DNA from: Synergistaceae bacterium
Lineage (GTDB): Bacteria > Synergistota > Synergistia > Synergistales > Aminobacteriaceae
Length of the DNA stretch: 62,068 nucleotides
Assembly (NCBI GenBank): GCA_031272035.1
Contig: JAISUO010000047.1
Coordinates: 1 to 62,068, forward strand
Reading direction: 5' to 3'
Position 1 is the stretch's first letter; each line of letters begins with the position of its first letter. The position numbers were made by a program, and so were the translations under genes. The notes below the pieces were generated by a model that saw nothing but the letters and a program-made list of their open reading frames with translations, had not been told where the DNA came from and ran no database searches. Below are positions 2,943 to 30,174 of the stretch, in pieces.

Positions 2943-4448
2943 ATGAGTGGATACGTGCTGCGAGGGGAAAATATCTGCAAATCCTTTGCTGGCAATCAGG
3001 CGCTGAAAAACGTCAATTTTGCTCTGCGCCCCGGACAGGTCATGGGCCTGGTGGGAGAGAACGGCGCGGGAAAATCCACCCTGGTCAAAGTTATTGCCGG
3101 CATTTATGAGCTGAACTCCGGTACGATCTTCCTGAACGATCAACCCGTCGCGTACGCGAACTCTTTACAGGCTTTGCACGCCGGTATCGCCATTATGCAT
3201 CAGGAACTAAACCTGTTCACCAATCTAAGCGTCTATGAAAACATTTATCTTGACCGGAAAGAATACCGAAGCTCTCTCGGAAAAATTGACAGAAAGCGGA
3301 TGCGGGAGGATGCCCGCTCCCTGTTGCAGCGGCTTGGAACGGATATCGATCCCGACGCTCAGGTTTTGTCTCTGCGTATTCGCGAACGGCAGATCGTGGA
3401 AGTTGCCCGCGCCGTCTCCGTCAGCGCGAAAGTTCTCATTATGGATGAGCCATCCGCGGCTTTGACGGAAGGCGAAGTTCAAAAAATGTTCGAAATCGTT
3501 CGAGCCTTAAAAGCGCAAGGTGTGGCTGTCATTTATGTTTCCCACCGAATGAACGAGATACGGCAAATATGCGACACGGTCCTGGTGCTTCGGGACGGAG
3601 AGAACGTCGGGGAGCTTGAGGTTGCTGACACCGAGATTCATGATATTGTCGAATTGATGGTAGGCCGCAGAATTGAAAACTATTATCCGCGCAACAAACA
3701 CGCAGGAGGAGAAACAGTTTTGGAAGTAAAAGAGCTGACTTCCGGATGGCTCCAGGATGTCTCTTTTCAGCTCAGTTCTTACGAAATTCTGGGCTTGTAC
3801 GGTCTGGCAGGCTCTGGCATAACGGACCTTGCGGAATGTCTTTTCGGACTTCGTAAAATATCGAAAGGTTCAATATGGGTCAAAGAAAAAAGATTGAACG
3901 GGACGGGACCCTCCGAAGCCATTCGGAACGGTCTTGCCTATGTTCCTTCGGACAGGCGCAACGAAGGGATCGTGACGGAGTTTTCTGTGGAAAATAATCT
4001 CATCCTGAGTTCATACAAAAAGTACAGTTTTGCAGGACTTTTTCTGCGAAAAAAGGAAATCGGGAAAACAGCGGCTCGCTCGATCATGAATTTCAATATC
4101 AAAACGAGGGATGGAAAACAGCAGATCCGTTTCCTGTCAGGCGGGAATCAGCAAAAGGTGGTCCTGGCAAAATGGCTTGAGACAGAACCCGGCGTTCTTA
4201 TCCTCAACGAACCCACAAGAGGTGTTGACGTTGGAGCGAAAGCCGAAATTTACGCTCAAATAGACCGTCTGGCCGCGCAGGGGATGGGCATTCTCTTCAT
4301 CAGCTCAGAAGTTCCGGAAATCGCAGGAATGGCCGATCGAGTCCTGGTGATTAATAAAGGCCGCGTCGCAGCTGAGATACCGTCTGACCAATGTACTCAG
4401 GAACGTCTTTTGGCATGTGCCTCCGGAAAGGATGTGCAGAGCCGGTGA
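2943..4448 (+). CDS. Sugar ABC transporter ATP-binding protein (RbsA/RhaT type)
   Basis: A 501-residue protein with two fused ABC ATPase domains, the normal length for the RbsA/MglA/LsrA class. The first domain has Walker A GENGAGKST (about residue 38) and a Walker B LIMDEPSAAL; its signature segment (SLRIRERQIVEVARA) is degenerate, as is usual for one half of this class. The second domain has the signature LSGGNQQKVVLAKWL and LILNEPTRGVDVG near the end but no canonical Walker A (LAGSGIT), again typical. It begins 11 bases after the kinase stop. It energises the two permeases that follow at the inner membrane face. Confidence 0.93.
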   Translation: MSGYVLRGENICKSFAGNQALKNVNFALRPGQVMGLVGENGAGKSTLVKVIAGIYELNSGTIFLNDQPVAYANSLQALHAGIAIMHQELNLFTNLSVYENIYLDRKEYRSSLGKIDRKRMREDARSLLQRLGTDIDPDAQVLSLRIRERQIVEVARAVSVSAKVLIMDEPSAALTEGEVQKMFEIVRALKAQGVAVIYVSHRMNEIRQICDTVLVLRDGENVGELEVADTEIHDIVELMVGRRIENYYPRNKHAGGETVLEVKELTSGWLQDVSFQLSSYEILGLYGLAGSGITDLAECLFGLRKISKGSIWVKEKRLNGTGPSEAIRNGLAYVPSDRRNEGIVTEFSVENNLILSSYKKYSFAGLFLRKKEIGKTAARSIMNFNIKTRDGKQQIRFLSGGNQQKVVLAKWLETEPGVLILNEPTRGVDVGAKAEIYAQIDRLAAQGMGILFISSEVPEIAGMADRVLVINKGRVAAEIPSDQCTQERLLACASGKDVQSR

Positions 4449-5419
4449 TTAATTGGAGCAGACAGAAATATGCTTTTTTATTGCGGCAGGAATGTTTGGT
4501 TACGCTTTTCACCGCCCTGGTGATTGCGGTTTTTTCGTCGATACCGGACAGCAATTTTTGTACTCTGCCGAATTTCAGAATCATTCTTTCTCAGGCCGCG
4601 ATCAACGGAATATGCGTCATCGGTCTGACGACCTGCCTTATCATGGGGGGTATAGATTTTTCGATGGGCGCGATTTTGGCGGTATGCGCCTGTTTTTCCG
4701 GAATCCTGGTAAATCATGGACTCCCTGTAATTCTGGTTATATTACTTAGTGTGTCAACAGGGATTCTGTGCGGAGCCGTCAATGGCTTCCTTATTGCATA
4801 TCTGCGCATTGCCCCGATTATCGCGACTTTAGCGAGCATGTACGTGCTTCGAGGCATGTGCGCAATCGCCACCGGCGGCGTCTGGATATCCGACTTTCCC
4901 GATACCTTCAAATGGCCGGGACAGACCACCTGGAGAGGCATCCCGATGCACTTCGTCCTCTGGATCGCGCTGGCGTTTAGTGCGCAGTATATCCTCAACA
5001 ATTTCAACGCAGGACGAAAACTTTACGCCGCAGGTGGAAATCCGGAGGCCGCCAGGCTGTTCGGCATCGACTATGCTGCCTGCAGAATGAATGTTTACAT
5101 GATAAGCGGCGCTTTAATTGGCCTGAGCGGGACGATATACGCTTCCATGGTGGGAACGGTCAGCGCGGACACCACAGGTTTGAACACCGGAGGAGATCTT
5201 CTGGCGGCGGCGCTGATTGGCGGAGTTAATATTAACGGCGGAAAGGGCAACATCTTTGGCGCAGGCATGGGTGTTCTCTTAATGCAGATTATTAGAAACG
5301 GGCTGATTATCTCCAGAATTTCAGAACATTGGGCAGATGCCATCACCGGAGCGATTATCGTGTTTGCTCTCGTTTTGTCTTATCTTGAGAACTATTCACA
5401 AAGAGGAGAAAAGAAATGA
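4445..5419 (+). CDS. Sugar ABC transporter permease 1 (RbsC/RhaP family)
   Basis: A polytopic membrane protein of 324 residues with the BPD_transp_2 family features: GGIDFSMGAILAV in the first third and GGVNINGGKGNIFGAGMGVLLMQIIRNGL in the last third. The start is taken as GTG at 4445, which overlaps the stop of the ATPase gene (GTGA) and is preceded by an AAAGGA; the frame is open further upstream but that would overlap the ATPase by more than 50 bases. It ends with ATGA overlap into the second permease gene. With its paralogue at 5416 it should form a heterodimeric channel. Confidence 0.88.
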   Translation: MINWSRQKYAFLLRQECLVTLFTALVIAVFSSIPDSNFCTLPNFRIILSQAAINGICVIGLTTCLIMGGIDFSMGAILAVCACFSGILVNHGLPVILVILLSVSTGILCGAVNGFLIAYLRIAPIIATLASMYVLRGMCAIATGGVWISDFPDTFKWPGQTTWRGIPMHFVLWIALAFSAQYILNNFNAGRKLYAAGGNPEAARLFGIDYAACRMNVYMISGALIGLSGTIYASMVGTVSADTTGLNTGGDLLAAALIGGVNINGGKGNIFGAGMGVLLMQIIRNGLIISRISEHWADAITGAIIVFALVLSYLENYSQRGEKK

Positions 5420-24404: not shown

Positions 24405-25463
24405 ATGGAGCGTATATTGGTTGTAGACGATAATTTGACGGTTCTGAAACAAATTGGCGTACAGCTCGCGGGAACCTACGACGTTCTTCTCGCGCGGTCG
24501 GGAGAGCTGGCTCTCCAGATATGTGCGCAGGAAAGTCCCGATCTCATTCTGCTTGACGTTGAAATGCCGGATATGGACGGGTTCGAAACCATCGCGGAAC
24601 TCCAGAGAACGCCGCCGCTGAACCAGATCCCCGTCATTTTTCTGACGAGTCGCAACGACGTGGCCACCGAGGTCAGGGCCCTCGAATCAGGGGCCATGGA
24701 TTTCATAGTCAAGCCGGCCCACCGAGACATCCTCCTGCACAGAATCGACCTTCACCTCCGATGTTCCACCTATCAGCACCATCTGGAGCAGATCGTGAGA
24801 GAACTGGAAGACAACGTGGTCATCTCTTTTGCGGAACTGATCGAATATAAGGACGAAAAAATGGGCGGGCATGTTCTGCGGACCAGCAAATACGTGGAAC
24901 TGCTGGGACGCGCCCTGATGCGGGACGGAAAATACTCCGACGCCTTCAGCGAAAAAGATCTGAACCTCATGATCCGGGCCGCCCCCTTTCATGACATCGG
25001 CAAGATAGGCGTAAGCGACGTCTTTCTGCTGAAACGGGGATCCCTGACCCCCGAAGAATACGACGAGGTCAAAAAACACACGGTTATCGGCGCCCAGGTT
25101 CTGAAGTCCATTCACGATCGAACCCCCACCCAGGACTATCTCAAATACGCTCAGCTGTTCGCGGAAGGCCACCATGAGCGATACGACGGAAAAGGCTATC
25201 CCTACGGACTCGAAGGCGAAGATATTCCCCTGTGCTGCAGGCTCATAGCCGTGGCGAACGTGTACGACGCCTGCATAACGCCCCGTATTTACCGGCCCGC
25301 TCTGACCCACGAAGAAGCGCGGCAGGTCATCCTGGCCGGAAAAGGCACGGAGTTTGACCCTTACATTGTGGACGTTTTTGAATCTCTGTACGATGATTTT
25401 TCGAAACTGCACGCGAGATCAAGGCTGCTGGGGAAAAGGTTCGGAGGCGACCCGGGGCTGTGA
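24405..25463 (+). CDS. Response regulator with HD-GYP domain, possibly degenerate
   Basis: A 352-residue protein: receiver domain (1-120) with phospho-acceptor D51 (LLDVEMPDMDGFE), then an HD-GYP domain (about 135-345) that in active members hydrolyses cyclic di-GMP. HD is at 196-197 (FHDIGKIGVSD), HHERYDGKGYPYG at 256-268 supplies the His pair and GYP. The downstream helix reads VANVYDAC where the tandem paralogue reads VADVYDAL, so the Asp expected among the metal ligands is Asn (residue 285), and the following segment is also divergent. It may be weak or purely regulatory. The ATG at 24405 is used; a GTG precedes it directly. It overlaps the next gene by four bases. Confidence 0.92.
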   Translation: MERILVVDDNLTVLKQIGVQLAGTYDVLLARSGELALQICAQESPDLILLDVEMPDMDGFETIAELQRTPPLNQIPVIFLTSRNDVATEVRALESGAMDFIVKPAHRDILLHRIDLHLRCSTYQHHLEQIVRELEDNVVISFAELIEYKDEKMGGHVLRTSKYVELLGRALMRDGKYSDAFSEKDLNLMIRAAPFHDIGKIGVSDVFLLKRGSLTPEEYDEVKKHTVIGAQVLKSIHDRTPTQDYLKYAQLFAEGHHERYDGKGYPYGLEGEDIPLCCRLIAVANVYDACITPRIYRPALTHEEARQVILAGKGTEFDPYIVDVFESLYDDFSKLHARSRLLGKRFGGDPGL

Positions 25464-26491
25464 AACGCATCCTCATCGTGGACGACAACATAACGAGTCT
25501 GCGGCAGGCTGCCGCTCAGCTTGCCGCGGATTATGAGGTTCTGCTGGCAAAGTCCGGCGCTCTCGCCCTGCAGATCTGCATCCAGGAGAAACCGGATTTG
25601 ATCCTGCTGGACGTCGAAATGCCGGACATGGACGGATTCGAAACCCTTGCCCGTCTGAGGCAAAATCCCTGGCTGGAGCATATTCCCGTCATCTTCCTCA
25701 CCTCCCGGGACGACGTCGAAACCGAGGTGCGAGGGCTCTCTCTGGGGGCGAGGGACTTCATTTCAAAGCCCGTGGAAAAAAGCATATTGCTCCACCGCCT
25801 CGGACTTCATCTGCGTTTTTCTGCCTGGCAGACCCGTCTGGAAAACTCCGTTATGGAAATGTCGGACGGCATCGCTTCTTCCTTCGCCGACCTGATTGAG
25901 TGCCGTGACGAAAGCACGGGAGGCCATGTCATGCGCACCAGCAGATACGTGGAAATCCTGGGGCGGGAAGTGATGAAATGCCGTCACTTTTCGGATGAAA
26001 TTTCCGCGGAGGAACTGAAGTCCGTTATTCGAGCCGCGCCCCTGCATGACATCGGCAAAATCGCAATCAGCGACCGCATTCTGCTCAAACCGGCACGGCT
26101 GAACGAGGTGGAATTCACCGCCATGAAGCGTCACACCATCATCGGGGCCGAAATTCTGAAGCACATGTACGAGCGGACCCCCGCTCAGCGATATTTGCAG
26201 TACGCAACCATGATCGCGGCCTCCCACCATGAGCGGTACGACGGAAAAGGCTATCCCCAGGGTCTCGAGGGGAACGATATTCCCCTGATCGGTCGTATTA
26301 TGGCGGTGGCGGACGTTTATGACGCTCTGGTGGACGACCGCGTCTACCGCAGCGCCATGAGCCCCAGCGAGGCCCGAAGCATTCTTCTGGAGGGCAGGGG
26401 CACTCAGTTCGATCCAATTCTCATCGACATTTTCGACGCCTGCAGCAAGGAATTCGAAAAAATGGTAACGGACAGGGGAATTTTTTCATGA
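25460..26491 (+). CDS. Response regulator with HD-GYP domain (c-di-GMP phosphodiesterase)
   Basis: A 343-residue protein with the same receiver plus HD-GYP layout as its upstream neighbour and colinear with it nearly throughout, so the two are a tandem duplication. D51 is the phospho-acceptor; HD is at 196-197, HHERYDGKGYP at 256-266, and the helix AVADVYDALVDDRVY has the standard Asp (285), so this copy looks catalytically complete. The start is GTG at 25460 overlapping the upstream TGA; its own stop overlaps the FIST gene. Phosphorylation could come from the hybrid kinase encoded at 27742. Confidence 0.94.
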   Translation: MKRILIVDDNITSLRQAAAQLAADYEVLLAKSGALALQICIQEKPDLILLDVEMPDMDGFETLARLRQNPWLEHIPVIFLTSRDDVETEVRGLSLGARDFISKPVEKSILLHRLGLHLRFSAWQTRLENSVMEMSDGIASSFADLIECRDESTGGHVMRTSRYVEILGREVMKCRHFSDEISAEELKSVIRAAPLHDIGKIAISDRILLKPARLNEVEFTAMKRHTIIGAEILKHMYERTPAQRYLQYATMIAASHHERYDGKGYPQGLEGNDIPLIGRIMAVADVYDALVDDRVYRSAMSPSEARSILLEGRGTQFDPILIDIFDACSKEFEKMVTDRGIFS

Positions 26492-27741: not shown

Positions 27742-30174
27742 TTGTTTGATGAGATTCCAACACCCGAAGAGTATCGGCAGTTAAAAGAAGAAACGGAACG
27801 GCTGCGCGGAGAAAACGCAAAGCTGGCCCGACGCCTGAGGACGATGCTGGAACTGGCGGAAAGGGTTCAATCCACCACCGTCGGCAGTATGGCCCTGAGC
27901 GCCGTGCTGTCGGCGGAAAGATCCCATCGTGAAATTTTTTTGGACCTGATACTGGAAAACAGCCCCGACATCATCCTTCTGTTCGATCAGGAGGACCGAT
28001 TTCTTTACTCCACGGATACTTTTCTGAAAAGCGCTCAAATCCGAAACTTTGGATTGATCGGAGGCAGAAAATTTTTCGAGGTGTTCAGCTCCCTGATGGA
28101 AGCGGGAGAAGCCCGACGCCTCGCCGATATTTTCGTTAAATCGAAGAAAGAGCGGACCAGCGCCTATCTGGAGTGGACCATCGATTTCAGCAGAAGGGGA
28201 AATCCCCACACCTACACCATTCATTTCACTCCCATGCTGGACGGCAAAGGCCGCATCACGGGCTCCATGGCGCTGTTCCACGACCTCACCGACGTTCTGC
28301 AGGCCCGTCAGTCCGAGGCGGCCTCTCAGGCAAAAAGCGCCTTCCTCGCCACGATCAGTCACGAGATTCGCACGCCCCTGAACGCCATCATCGGCCTTTC
28401 CGAGATGGAACTGCGCAACACGCTGCCGAAGAAAACCCACGAAAACCTGGAAAAAATTTACAACTCGGGGTCGAACCTTCTGAGTATCGTCAACGATATT
28501 CTGGACATTTCGAAAATCGAGTCGGGGAGCTTCGAGCTGCTGCCGGCCCGTTACGACATCGCAGCCATGATCAACGATACGGTCCAGCTCAACATGGTTC
28601 GCATCGGCTCCAAAAACATCACCTTCGAACTTTTTCTGAACGAAACCCTCCCCTCCTTCTTCTGCGGAGATGAACTGCGAATAAAGCAAATTTTAAATAA
28701 CCTTCTCTCCAACGCCATCAAATACACGGACGCGGGAAAAGTGACCTTCCGGATCGACTGGGAGTATCGATCGAAAACCGCCTGGCTGATTTTCGAGGTG
28801 ACCGATACGGGACACGGTATCCGCAGGGAGGACATGGGCAGGCTCTTTTCAAGGTACACCCAGATTACCACCCAGGCGAACCGCCACATCGAGGGAACGG
28901 GGCTGGGCCTTTCCATTACGAAGAACCTTGTGGACATCATGGGCGGGACGATCTCGGTGGAAAGTGAATACCAGAAGGGCAGCAGCTTCAAAGTCGAGAT
29001 TCCCCAGGTCGTGTCCGACGAGACGCCCATCGGCGAAGAAACCGTGAAAAAACTGAAAGAATTTCACTTTATTGAGACAAGGCGCTCTCGAAGCAAAAAT
29101 CTCATTCGCACCTACATGCCCTGGGGCAAGGTTCTGATCGTGGACGACGTGCCCATCAATCTGGACGTGGCGAAGGGCCTCATGCTCCCCTACGGCCTCA
29201 CCATCGACTGCGCTGAAAGCGGAGAGGAGGCTCTGGAGAAAATTCGGCAGGAAAAGCCGAAATACGACATCGTGTTCATGGACCACATGATGCCGGGAAT
29301 GGACGGCATCGAGGCGACCCGAATCATCCGTGAAATGGAAACGGACTACGCCAAAAATCTGCCGGTGGTGGCCCTGACGGCGAACGCGCTCGCCGGAAAT
29401 CGCGAAATGTTCCTGGCAAACGGATTTAACGGTTTTATCTCGAAGCCCATAGATATTATGCAGCTTGACGCGGTTCTCCGGCAGTGGATTCCCAAACCGG
29501 ACCGGACGGCGCTGCAATTGATGGAACACACGGAAAAAGACCGGGAAAACGCGAAACCCCTGCTTCCGCGTCAGGAGCTGTTGAAGGGAAAAATCCTGGA
29601 GGGCGTGGACCTGGTGGCGGGCATCGAATGCTGCAACGGCGAGGAAGCCTATCTGGACGTTTTACGGTCCTACGCGACCCACACCCCCGACCTGTTGGAA
29701 CAGATGCTCCAGGTGAGCAGAGAAAATCTCGAAGACTACGTGATTACGGTACACGGACTGAAGGGCGCCAGCTACGGCATACGGGCCGACGCCACAGGCC
29801 GGAGGGCGGAGTCGCTGGAGCAGGCGGCCCGGGCGGGACATTTCGAAATGGTGCGGGCGGGGAACGTGTCCTTTGTGGCCACGGTGAAGGACCTGCTTTC
29901 CAGACTGGAAGAACTCCTTGCCGGCATATCATCGGAAAGCACGAGGGGAAGGGAACGGGTGGCAGGCCCGGACAGCGCTCTTCTGACAGAGCTGCTGGAG
30001 GCCTGCAAACATTACAAATCTTTGCTGATGGAAGAAATTCTCACGGAACTGGAGCGTTACGAATACGAGACGGGAAACGAGCTGATTCAGTGGCTGAGGG
30101 AACAGCTCAACGCCCTGGAGTACGAGACGATACGGGAGCGGCTGGAAAACCTCCTCGCAGAAAAAAAGAACTGA
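27742..30174 (+). CDS. Hybrid sensor kinase: PAS-HisKA-HATPase-REC-HPt
   Basis: An 810-residue cytoplasmic hybrid kinase. An N-terminal coiled coil (about 8-45) is followed by a PAS-like domain (70-185), HisKA with H207 (ISHEIRTPLNAI), HATPase (about 315-435, NNLLSNAIKYTD, DTGHGI, GTGLGLSI), a receiver domain with acidic residues VDDV and phospho-acceptor D514 (FMDHMMPGMDG), and a C-terminal HPt domain with H671 (TVHGLKGAS). There are no membrane segments, so it reads an internal signal. The start is TTG at 27742 after a GAAGGCGG-type site. It closes the HD-GYP/FIST cluster and has all modules for a phosphorelay to the two HD-GYP response regulators. Confidence 0.92.
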   Translation: MFDEIPTPEEYRQLKEETERLRGENAKLARRLRTMLELAERVQSTTVGSMALSAVLSAERSHREIFLDLILENSPDIILLFDQEDRFLYSTDTFLKSAQIRNFGLIGGRKFFEVFSSLMEAGEARRLADIFVKSKKERTSAYLEWTIDFSRRGNPHTYTIHFTPMLDGKGRITGSMALFHDLTDVLQARQSEAASQAKSAFLATISHEIRTPLNAIIGLSEMELRNTLPKKTHENLEKIYNSGSNLLSIVNDILDISKIESGSFELLPARYDIAAMINDTVQLNMVRIGSKNITFELFLNETLPSFFCGDELRIKQILNNLLSNAIKYTDAGKVTFRIDWEYRSKTAWLIFEVTDTGHGIRREDMGRLFSRYTQITTQANRHIEGTGLGLSITKNLVDIMGGTISVESEYQKGSSFKVEIPQVVSDETPIGEETVKKLKEFHFIETRRSRSKNLIRTYMPWGKVLIVDDVPINLDVAKGLMLPYGLTIDCAESGEEALEKIRQEKPKYDIVFMDHMMPGMDGIEATRIIREMETDYAKNLPVVALTANALAGNREMFLANGFNGFISKPIDIMQLDAVLRQWIPKPDRTALQLMEHTEKDRENAKPLLPRQELLKGKILEGVDLVAGIECCNGEEAYLDVLRSYATHTPDLLEQMLQVSRENLEDYVITVHGLKGASYGIRADATGRRAESLEQAARAGHFEMVRAGNVSFVATVKDLLSRLEELLAGISSESTRGRERVAGPDSALLTELLEACKHYKSLLMEEILTELERYEYETGNELIQWLREQLNALEYETIRERLENLLAEKKN

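Follow-up and report, generated by a model that had tools for sequence, protein, structure and literature searches.

The NosR-NosP-NosK operon of Burkholderia pseudomallei encodes, in this order, a REC-HD-GYP regulator, a FIST protein and a histidine kinase; NosR is predicted to be inactive, being degenerate at both HD and GYP (HG-GTP), and is phosphorylated by NosK (PMC12570481). In Shewanella oneidensis, the inactive and degenerate REC-HD-GYP protein HnoD suppresses by contact the phosphodiesterase regulator HnoB, an EAL enzyme that responds to the same kinases (PMC6335343, PMC8846402). Bd1817 of Bdellovibrio bacteriovorus has Asn for the last metal-ligand Asp of its HD-GYP domain, and it also lacks the Tyr of GYP, carries Glu for one ligand His, and in its pocket has Arg instead of a small residue and Glu instead of the usual Arg, with no paired intact copy described in the accounts cited here (PMC8177086, PMC3774798, PMC4159591). 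DvhD of Desulfovibrio vulgaris is a PAS-HD-GYP membrane protein whose non-catalytic HD-GYP domain is used as a c-di-GMP receptor, and which has lost HD and HH and shows no bound metal (PMC13090378). Two HD-type domains in one chain are found in V-cGAP3 (VCA0681), an active phosphodiesterase with the arrangement HD-[HD-GYP] (PMC4212101; 5z7c).

We analyzed a stretch of 62,068 nucleotides from a Synergistaceae bacterium (contig JAISUO010000047.1, hereafter the window), in which four co-directional genes on the forward strand encode two REC-HD-GYP response regulators, a FIST_N/FIST_C protein and a hybrid histidine kinase. The first regulator (copy 1, 24405..25463, 352 aa, with REC at residues 4-114 and HD_5 at 143-320) has Asn285 where the last metal-ligand Asp would be, and the second (copy 2, 25460..26491, 343 aa, with REC at 4-113 and HD_5 at 143-319) carries all seven ligands of the motif H...HD...H...HH...D. 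The stop codon of copy 1 and the GTG start of copy 2 share a GTGA overlap of 4 nt (25460..25463), from which we infer translational coupling. The start of the gene for the FIST sensor protein P0003 (26488..27642, 384 aa) overlaps in turn the stop of copy 2, and downstream lies the kinase, PAS-HisKA-HATPase-REC-Hpt (27742..30174, 810 aa from a TTG, the start being uncertain), with the motifs SHEIRTPLN from residue 206, MDHMMPGMDG with the REC Asp from 513 and VHGLKGASYG with the Hpt His from 670; its Hpt domain scores 20.3 bits, under the Pfam cut-off of 24.6. By domain and position P0003 appears NosP-like, but the module departs from the Burkholderia system in having a pair of regulators, of which one is intact and the other has a single Asp-to-Asn change, where NosR is alone and degenerate at HD and GYP (PMC12570481). 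In contrast to NosK, the kinase of the window is of the hybrid type and has PAS, REC and Hpt domains, and against the NCBIfam NosR model (NF053512, cut-off 400) the two copies score only 157.1 and 151.5 bits.

Copies 1 and 2 align without gaps by BLASTP, with 195 of 335 residues identical (58%), which bears out the proposal of the initial annotation that they are colinear paralogues, and the Asn/Asp difference it pointed to is written in the codons AAC (25257..25259) in copy 1 and GAC (26312..26314) for Asp285 in copy 2. Motif spacing and a phmmer alignment to PmGH (4mcw) both place Asn285 at PmGH D305, one among eight listed metal ligands (PMC4159591). H156, H196, D197, H225, H256 and H257 are all present in copy 1 (P0001), leaving Asn285 as the sole change among the seven dinuclear-motif ligands; the full ligand set of a dinuclear HD-GYP phosphodiesterase is thus found in copy 2 (P0002, 25460-26482) and not in copy 1. 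Both copies have G264-Y265-P266 and the pocket Arg R294. At the bridging-Glu position (PmGH E185) copy 1 has Lys and copy 2 has Ser, so this position does not divide the copies into a broken and an intact one, and the E/D-T-G motif of the trinuclear subgroup is replaced by KMG in P0001 and STG in P0002. At the bridging-Glu position itself, Asn is the commonest residue among the pairs described below (43/51 first copies and 39/51 second copies). Copy 1 had also been called apparently degenerate, which is too strong for a site that is nearly complete and altered at one ligand.

Relatives of the pair were collected with a profile (A1) built from first copies, and detection is therefore biased toward first copies. 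We searched 81 genomes of the family, 185 of the phylum and 195 of one spirochaete family, the last chosen after a contig scan had pointed there among the matches listed. The 51 tandem pairs fetched come from 43 genomes, with 18 pairs in 11 Synergistota genomes and 33 in 32 genomes of that spirochaete family; the source genome has two more pairs besides that of the window (contigs C97 and C114), and two congeners have more. In a sample of 392 genomes drawn evenly from the spirochaete phylum, a match at E <= 1e-112 was found in 2, each of which the family search had recovered before. Left unfetched were five lone matches above 400 bits in the spirochaete family search (G286:C219, G374:C24, G254:C38, G253:C74 and G257:C304), matches near 350-378 bits except the G354 pair, and G142:C36 (356 bits) from the phylum search.

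Residues were read on one HMM alignment of 137 domains. All 51 first copies have Asn at this position, which provides the conservation among orthologues that the initial annotation had proposed as a check, and Asp is present in 50/50 readable second copies, the remaining one (L046, also left out of the dN/dS comparisons) being truncated by the end of its contig ahead of the Asp. The 35 left-over domains comprise 28 with Asp, 4 with Asn, 1 with Ser and 2 that stop short of the position, and 23 of 23 ordinary HD-GYP proteins used as an outgroup have Asp. The Asn is encoded by AAC in 27 cases and AAT in 24, and the use of both codons indicates that the amino acid itself is under selection; together with the 51/51 count, it rules out a chance event or a sequencing error. 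Among the 51 pairs is L193, from a single MAG, in which an in-frame TAG splits the first copy (3804-4829); that copy was kept out of the tree and the dN/dS comparisons, and the piece in front of the stop makes up one of the two short left-over domains. L193 shares its genome, the MAG 'Synergistaceae bacterium Po218_bin34' from the same order as the source genome, with L092, and we take the relatives Po218, Iy174 and Pc512 to be of termite-gut origin.

A tree of 157 rows (quick search, SH-aLRT support only) was built with column 285 excluded. It groups 50 first copies and five lone Asn or Ser domains into one clade of 55 rows (support 100), and the 51 second copies with five lone Asp domains into another of 56 rows (support 99), with 23 lone Asp domains outside both. 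As the first copies lie in one supported clade, with Asn in 54/55 rows and Ser in 1/55, the Asn most likely arose once and was then kept. The joins of the three groups are supported at 66 and 0, and since the two clades are sisters at only 66, the tree does not settle the order of duplication. Some Synergistota rows sit among spirochaete rows (support 78-91).

Conservation within the first-copy clade extends to nearly the whole site. H250, H276, H277, D222, K225, G-Y-P and I294 are invariant (55/55), H189 and H221 are each present in 54/55, D308 in 47/55 and the pocket Arg (R314) in 54/55. The pocket Ala position holds Ala, Gly or Ser in 54/55 rows; in PA4781 it is Glu and in Bd1817 Arg, and c-di-GMP needs a small residue there (PMC3774798). 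These retained ligands and pocket residues describe a site altered at one ligand and otherwise kept, and nearly all first copies have the canonical residue at the further positions at which Bd1817 has changed. Further signatures of the clade are F195 beside the HD dyad, C290, K149 and E135. The initial annotation had described the helix that follows Asn285 as divergent; it does differ between the copies, with Cys290 in 98% of the first-copy clade versus Leu in 94% of second copies (a set to which two lone Asp copies were added manually), but it is a conserved signature of the clade, and this rules it out as a mark of general decay. The phospho-accepting Asp of REC is present in 53/55 first-copy-clade rows and 51/51 second copies. 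One first copy is more decayed (L254:3841-4866), with Tyr for His at PmGH 189 and 221 in addition to the Asn.

We think it probable that the two regulators form the output stage of a phosphorelay made up of the FIST sensor and the hybrid kinase, in which copy 2 would act as the phosphodiesterase and copy 1 as a dedicated pseudo-phosphodiesterase that controls copy 2 by contact. The H-box, REC Asp and HGLKG Hpt motifs of the kinase make a His-Asp-His-Asp relay onto both RECs likely, and the operon, the conservation of REC and the architecture of the kinase suggest that phosphate is passed to both regulators. In PA4781, phosphorylation of REC is needed for HD-GYP activity (PMC3774798). Copy 2, with its intact dinuclear site, is predicted to hydrolyze c-di-GMP. 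For copy 1, in which the metal cage is kept except for the last Asp and the pocket is retained, binding of metal and c-di-GMP is most likely, and turnover would be poor or nil. Two cases bear on its chemistry: Bd1817, which with Asn at this position carries a di-iron site yet shows no activity toward c-di-GMP (PMC8177086, PMC3774798), and the nearest mutant, PmGH D305A, which is strongly impaired but retains residual hydrolysis (PMC4159591). Taken together, these cases suggest that copy 2 is the enzyme and copy 1 a pseudo-enzyme that probably binds metal and c-di-GMP, even though the residual hydrolysis by D305A counts against complete inactivity and Bd1817 differs at further residues, so that its inactivity cannot be put down to the Asn alone. 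Copy 1 may then set the activity of copy 2, upward or downward, through its own phosphorylation and its bound c-di-GMP, much like HnoD acting on HnoB. As with HnoD, copy 1 is a REC-HD-GYP protein whose metal site is altered and whose neighbour is a regulator of the phosphodiesterase type, whereas the partner of HnoD is an EAL enzyme and here it is an HD-GYP paralogue whose gene overlaps or is fused (PMC6335343, PMC8846402). Copy 1 also differs from DvhD, which has lost HD and HH and its metal (PMC13090378). The suggestion that one copy is a non-catalytic sensor or partner of the other fits the conserved gene order, the Asn fixed in one clade, the overlap, four fusions, the kinase context and the retained pocket, while the inactivity of copy 1 is a prediction. 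More tentatively, and at somewhat under even confidence, the two may form a heteromeric enzyme of a catalytic and a pseudo-catalytic subunit, with the Asn-altered site sensing c-di-GMP (or metal or redox state) and gating hydrolysis by the partner.

The residual activity of PmGH D305A (PMC4159591) also leaves room for another reading, which we regard as unlikely, in which both copies are enzymes and labour is divided between them: copy 2 would convert c-di-GMP to pGpG, and copy 1, still active as a hydrolase despite the change in its metal site, would carry out a different reaction such as pGpG to GMP. A specific Asn, rather than a mixture of residues, has been kept alongside the other metal ligands, and the trinuclear bridging Glu is missing from both window copies. 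PA4781 prefers pGpG, and dinuclear HD-GYP proteins are said to perform one step only (PMC8177086, PMC3774798). However, the Asp that is replaced has been proposed to serve in acid-base catalysis (PMC3774798), Bd1817 with Asn is inactive (PMC8177086, PMC3774798), and D308, T186 and R192 are lost more often in first than in second copies.

Several features bear on whether the two copies act as a unit. The genes overlap in 43 of the 47 unfused pairs, 18 of them by 4 nt (start codons were picked by script as those nearest to the domain start), and four pairs are fused in a single reading frame, one of them (L042) in the source genome. V-cGAP3, in which only the second domain is catalytic, has a diverged HD as its first domain, unlike the near-intact REC-HD-GYP paralogue in these chains. 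AlphaFold2 models of L042 have confident domains (pLDDT 86.7 and 89.1 in two runs), and for the HD-GYP domain of the second half the structural matches are to PA4781 (4r8z, Z 29.8, rmsd 2.0 and 1.9 over 217), PmGH and DvhD, with 9rbz among them. In the run with alignment A4, which held first-copy rows only and deepened the first half, both RECs superpose on REC1-REC2 of PleD (1w25_A, 274 residues, rmsd 2.8, Z 30.9; pTM 0.74); in the run with A3, where MAFFT placed all single-copy rows on the second half, no PleD-like REC pair was seen (PleD rmsd about 20 A; pTM 0.72). The two runs disagree on how the halves pack, and we therefore claim no quaternary model.

Over 50 loci, identities among first copies correlate with those among second copies at 0.89 (the maximum of 500 shuffles was 0.30), a value expected for any linked genes. 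The domains behave differently from each other: REC identity is 0.64 between the copies of one locus and 0.65 within each clade, while HD-GYP identity is 0.52 between copies and 0.59 and 0.63 within the clades. Same-locus REC identity (0.639) lies above the maximum of 2000 shuffles (0.622), and same-locus HD-GYP identity (0.516) is barely above its own (0.515), so the two domains differ here in degree. The likeness of RECs at one locus fits regulators that share one kinase or meet through their RECs. The same identities, along with the REC phospho-Asp retained in 53/55 rows, would also be expected if the first copy served through its REC as a phosphate sink or dimerisation partner, with its HD-GYP domain as a mere scaffold. 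Phosphate sinks occur in other systems. We nonetheless find this reading improbable here, as a scaffold would not need the ligands H250, H276, H277 and D222, K225 and GYP to be invariant in 55/55 rows.

That the first copy is a drifting or recent paralogue heading for loss, with an accidental Asn, is very improbable: extra losses occur in some first copies (H189Y and H221Y in L254, the in-frame stop in L193), but as a general explanation it is refuted by the conservation counts, with one clade, 54/55 Asn, a low dN/dS, two phyla and four fusions. The median dN/dS was 0.124 for first copies and 0.099 for second copies (49 comparisons with pS < 0.6 over 49 loci), which rules out a pseudogene; these comparisons are non-independent, nearly all spirochaete, and leave out the window, whose pS to its nearest relative L043 is 0.66.

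Some loci deviate from the arrangement in which an altered first copy would control an intact second one. Three lone Asn copies (L191, L276 and L281) have no adjacent Asp copy and do not lie at contig ends, so the pairing is not absolute; in the genome of L191, a separate contig bears an Asp copy that is likewise alone (L192). The five spirochaete loci L257-L261 deviate in another way: their second copies retain the last Asp yet are without PmGH D183, K225 and the pocket Ala, and their first copies retain D183 and K225 alongside Asn at 305, so that the changes in the two fall at complementary places; two of these first copies also lack the REC phospho-Asp. Given these losses, those pairs cannot work quite as we propose.

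A FIST gene lies behind 20 of the 51 pairs, that of the window included, and a histidine kinase is also present in 19 of these 20. Among pairs with no FIST gene, 12 have a kinase within 2.2 kb behind, 5 within 0.5 kb in front and 1 on both sides; of the rest, 4 stop at a contig end and 9 have fetched flanks that contain no kinase, and a comparison of ten neighbour proteins from five of these nine gave no common partner. Three lone Asp copies (L091, L195 and L198) are followed by FIST and kinase genes, which suggests that the ancestral order was HD-GYP, FIST, kinase, as in nosR-nosP-nosK of B. pseudomallei (PMC12570481). We infer that the HD-GYP gene was duplicated within this three-gene operon, that the upstream copy then changed Asp to Asn, and that in some lines the two later fused. 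The presence of the four-gene module in two phyla may reflect exchange between gut bacteria.

The FIST domains of P0003 score above their cut-offs (PF08495, 53.2 bits against 23.2; PF10442, 39.7 against 28.5), but P0003 had no significant sequence match among solved structures (best E 0.31) and none in a plasmid collection. C42, C324 and C382 are invariant in 25/25 FIST proteins of the module (the window and 24 relatives), and no His is. The source genome (3.2 Mb) has ten FIST-domain matches over the cut-off; when eight of its other FIST proteins were aligned, the first and third Cys were missing from three (L077-L079). A redox or Fe-S signal may be sensed in place of heme-bound NO.

In conclusion, pseudo-HD-GYP regulators and NosR-P-K operons were already known, and the conserved Asn/Asp tandem appears to be new, as a literature search found no description of such an HD-GYP tandem or fusion in the sources it reached. 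NosR, HnoD, Bd1817 and DvhD are described in those sources as single inactive proteins that have lost several site residues where these are specified; here, a single change is kept in one clade, whose members are almost always followed directly by a paralogue with the Asp intact; this holds in two phyla, and some pairs share one chain. The role of a pseudo-HD-GYP thus becomes directly testable, either in one natural fusion or in an operon of two genes, and the FIST operon with one copy could serve as the control. If the heteromeric reading is true, these bacteria would possess a conserved pair of receptor and enzyme that arose by duplication of one HD-GYP gene and is placed under a FIST-kinase phosphorelay. 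The recurrence of the unequal pair, sometimes fused, suggests that the altered twin controls its partner.
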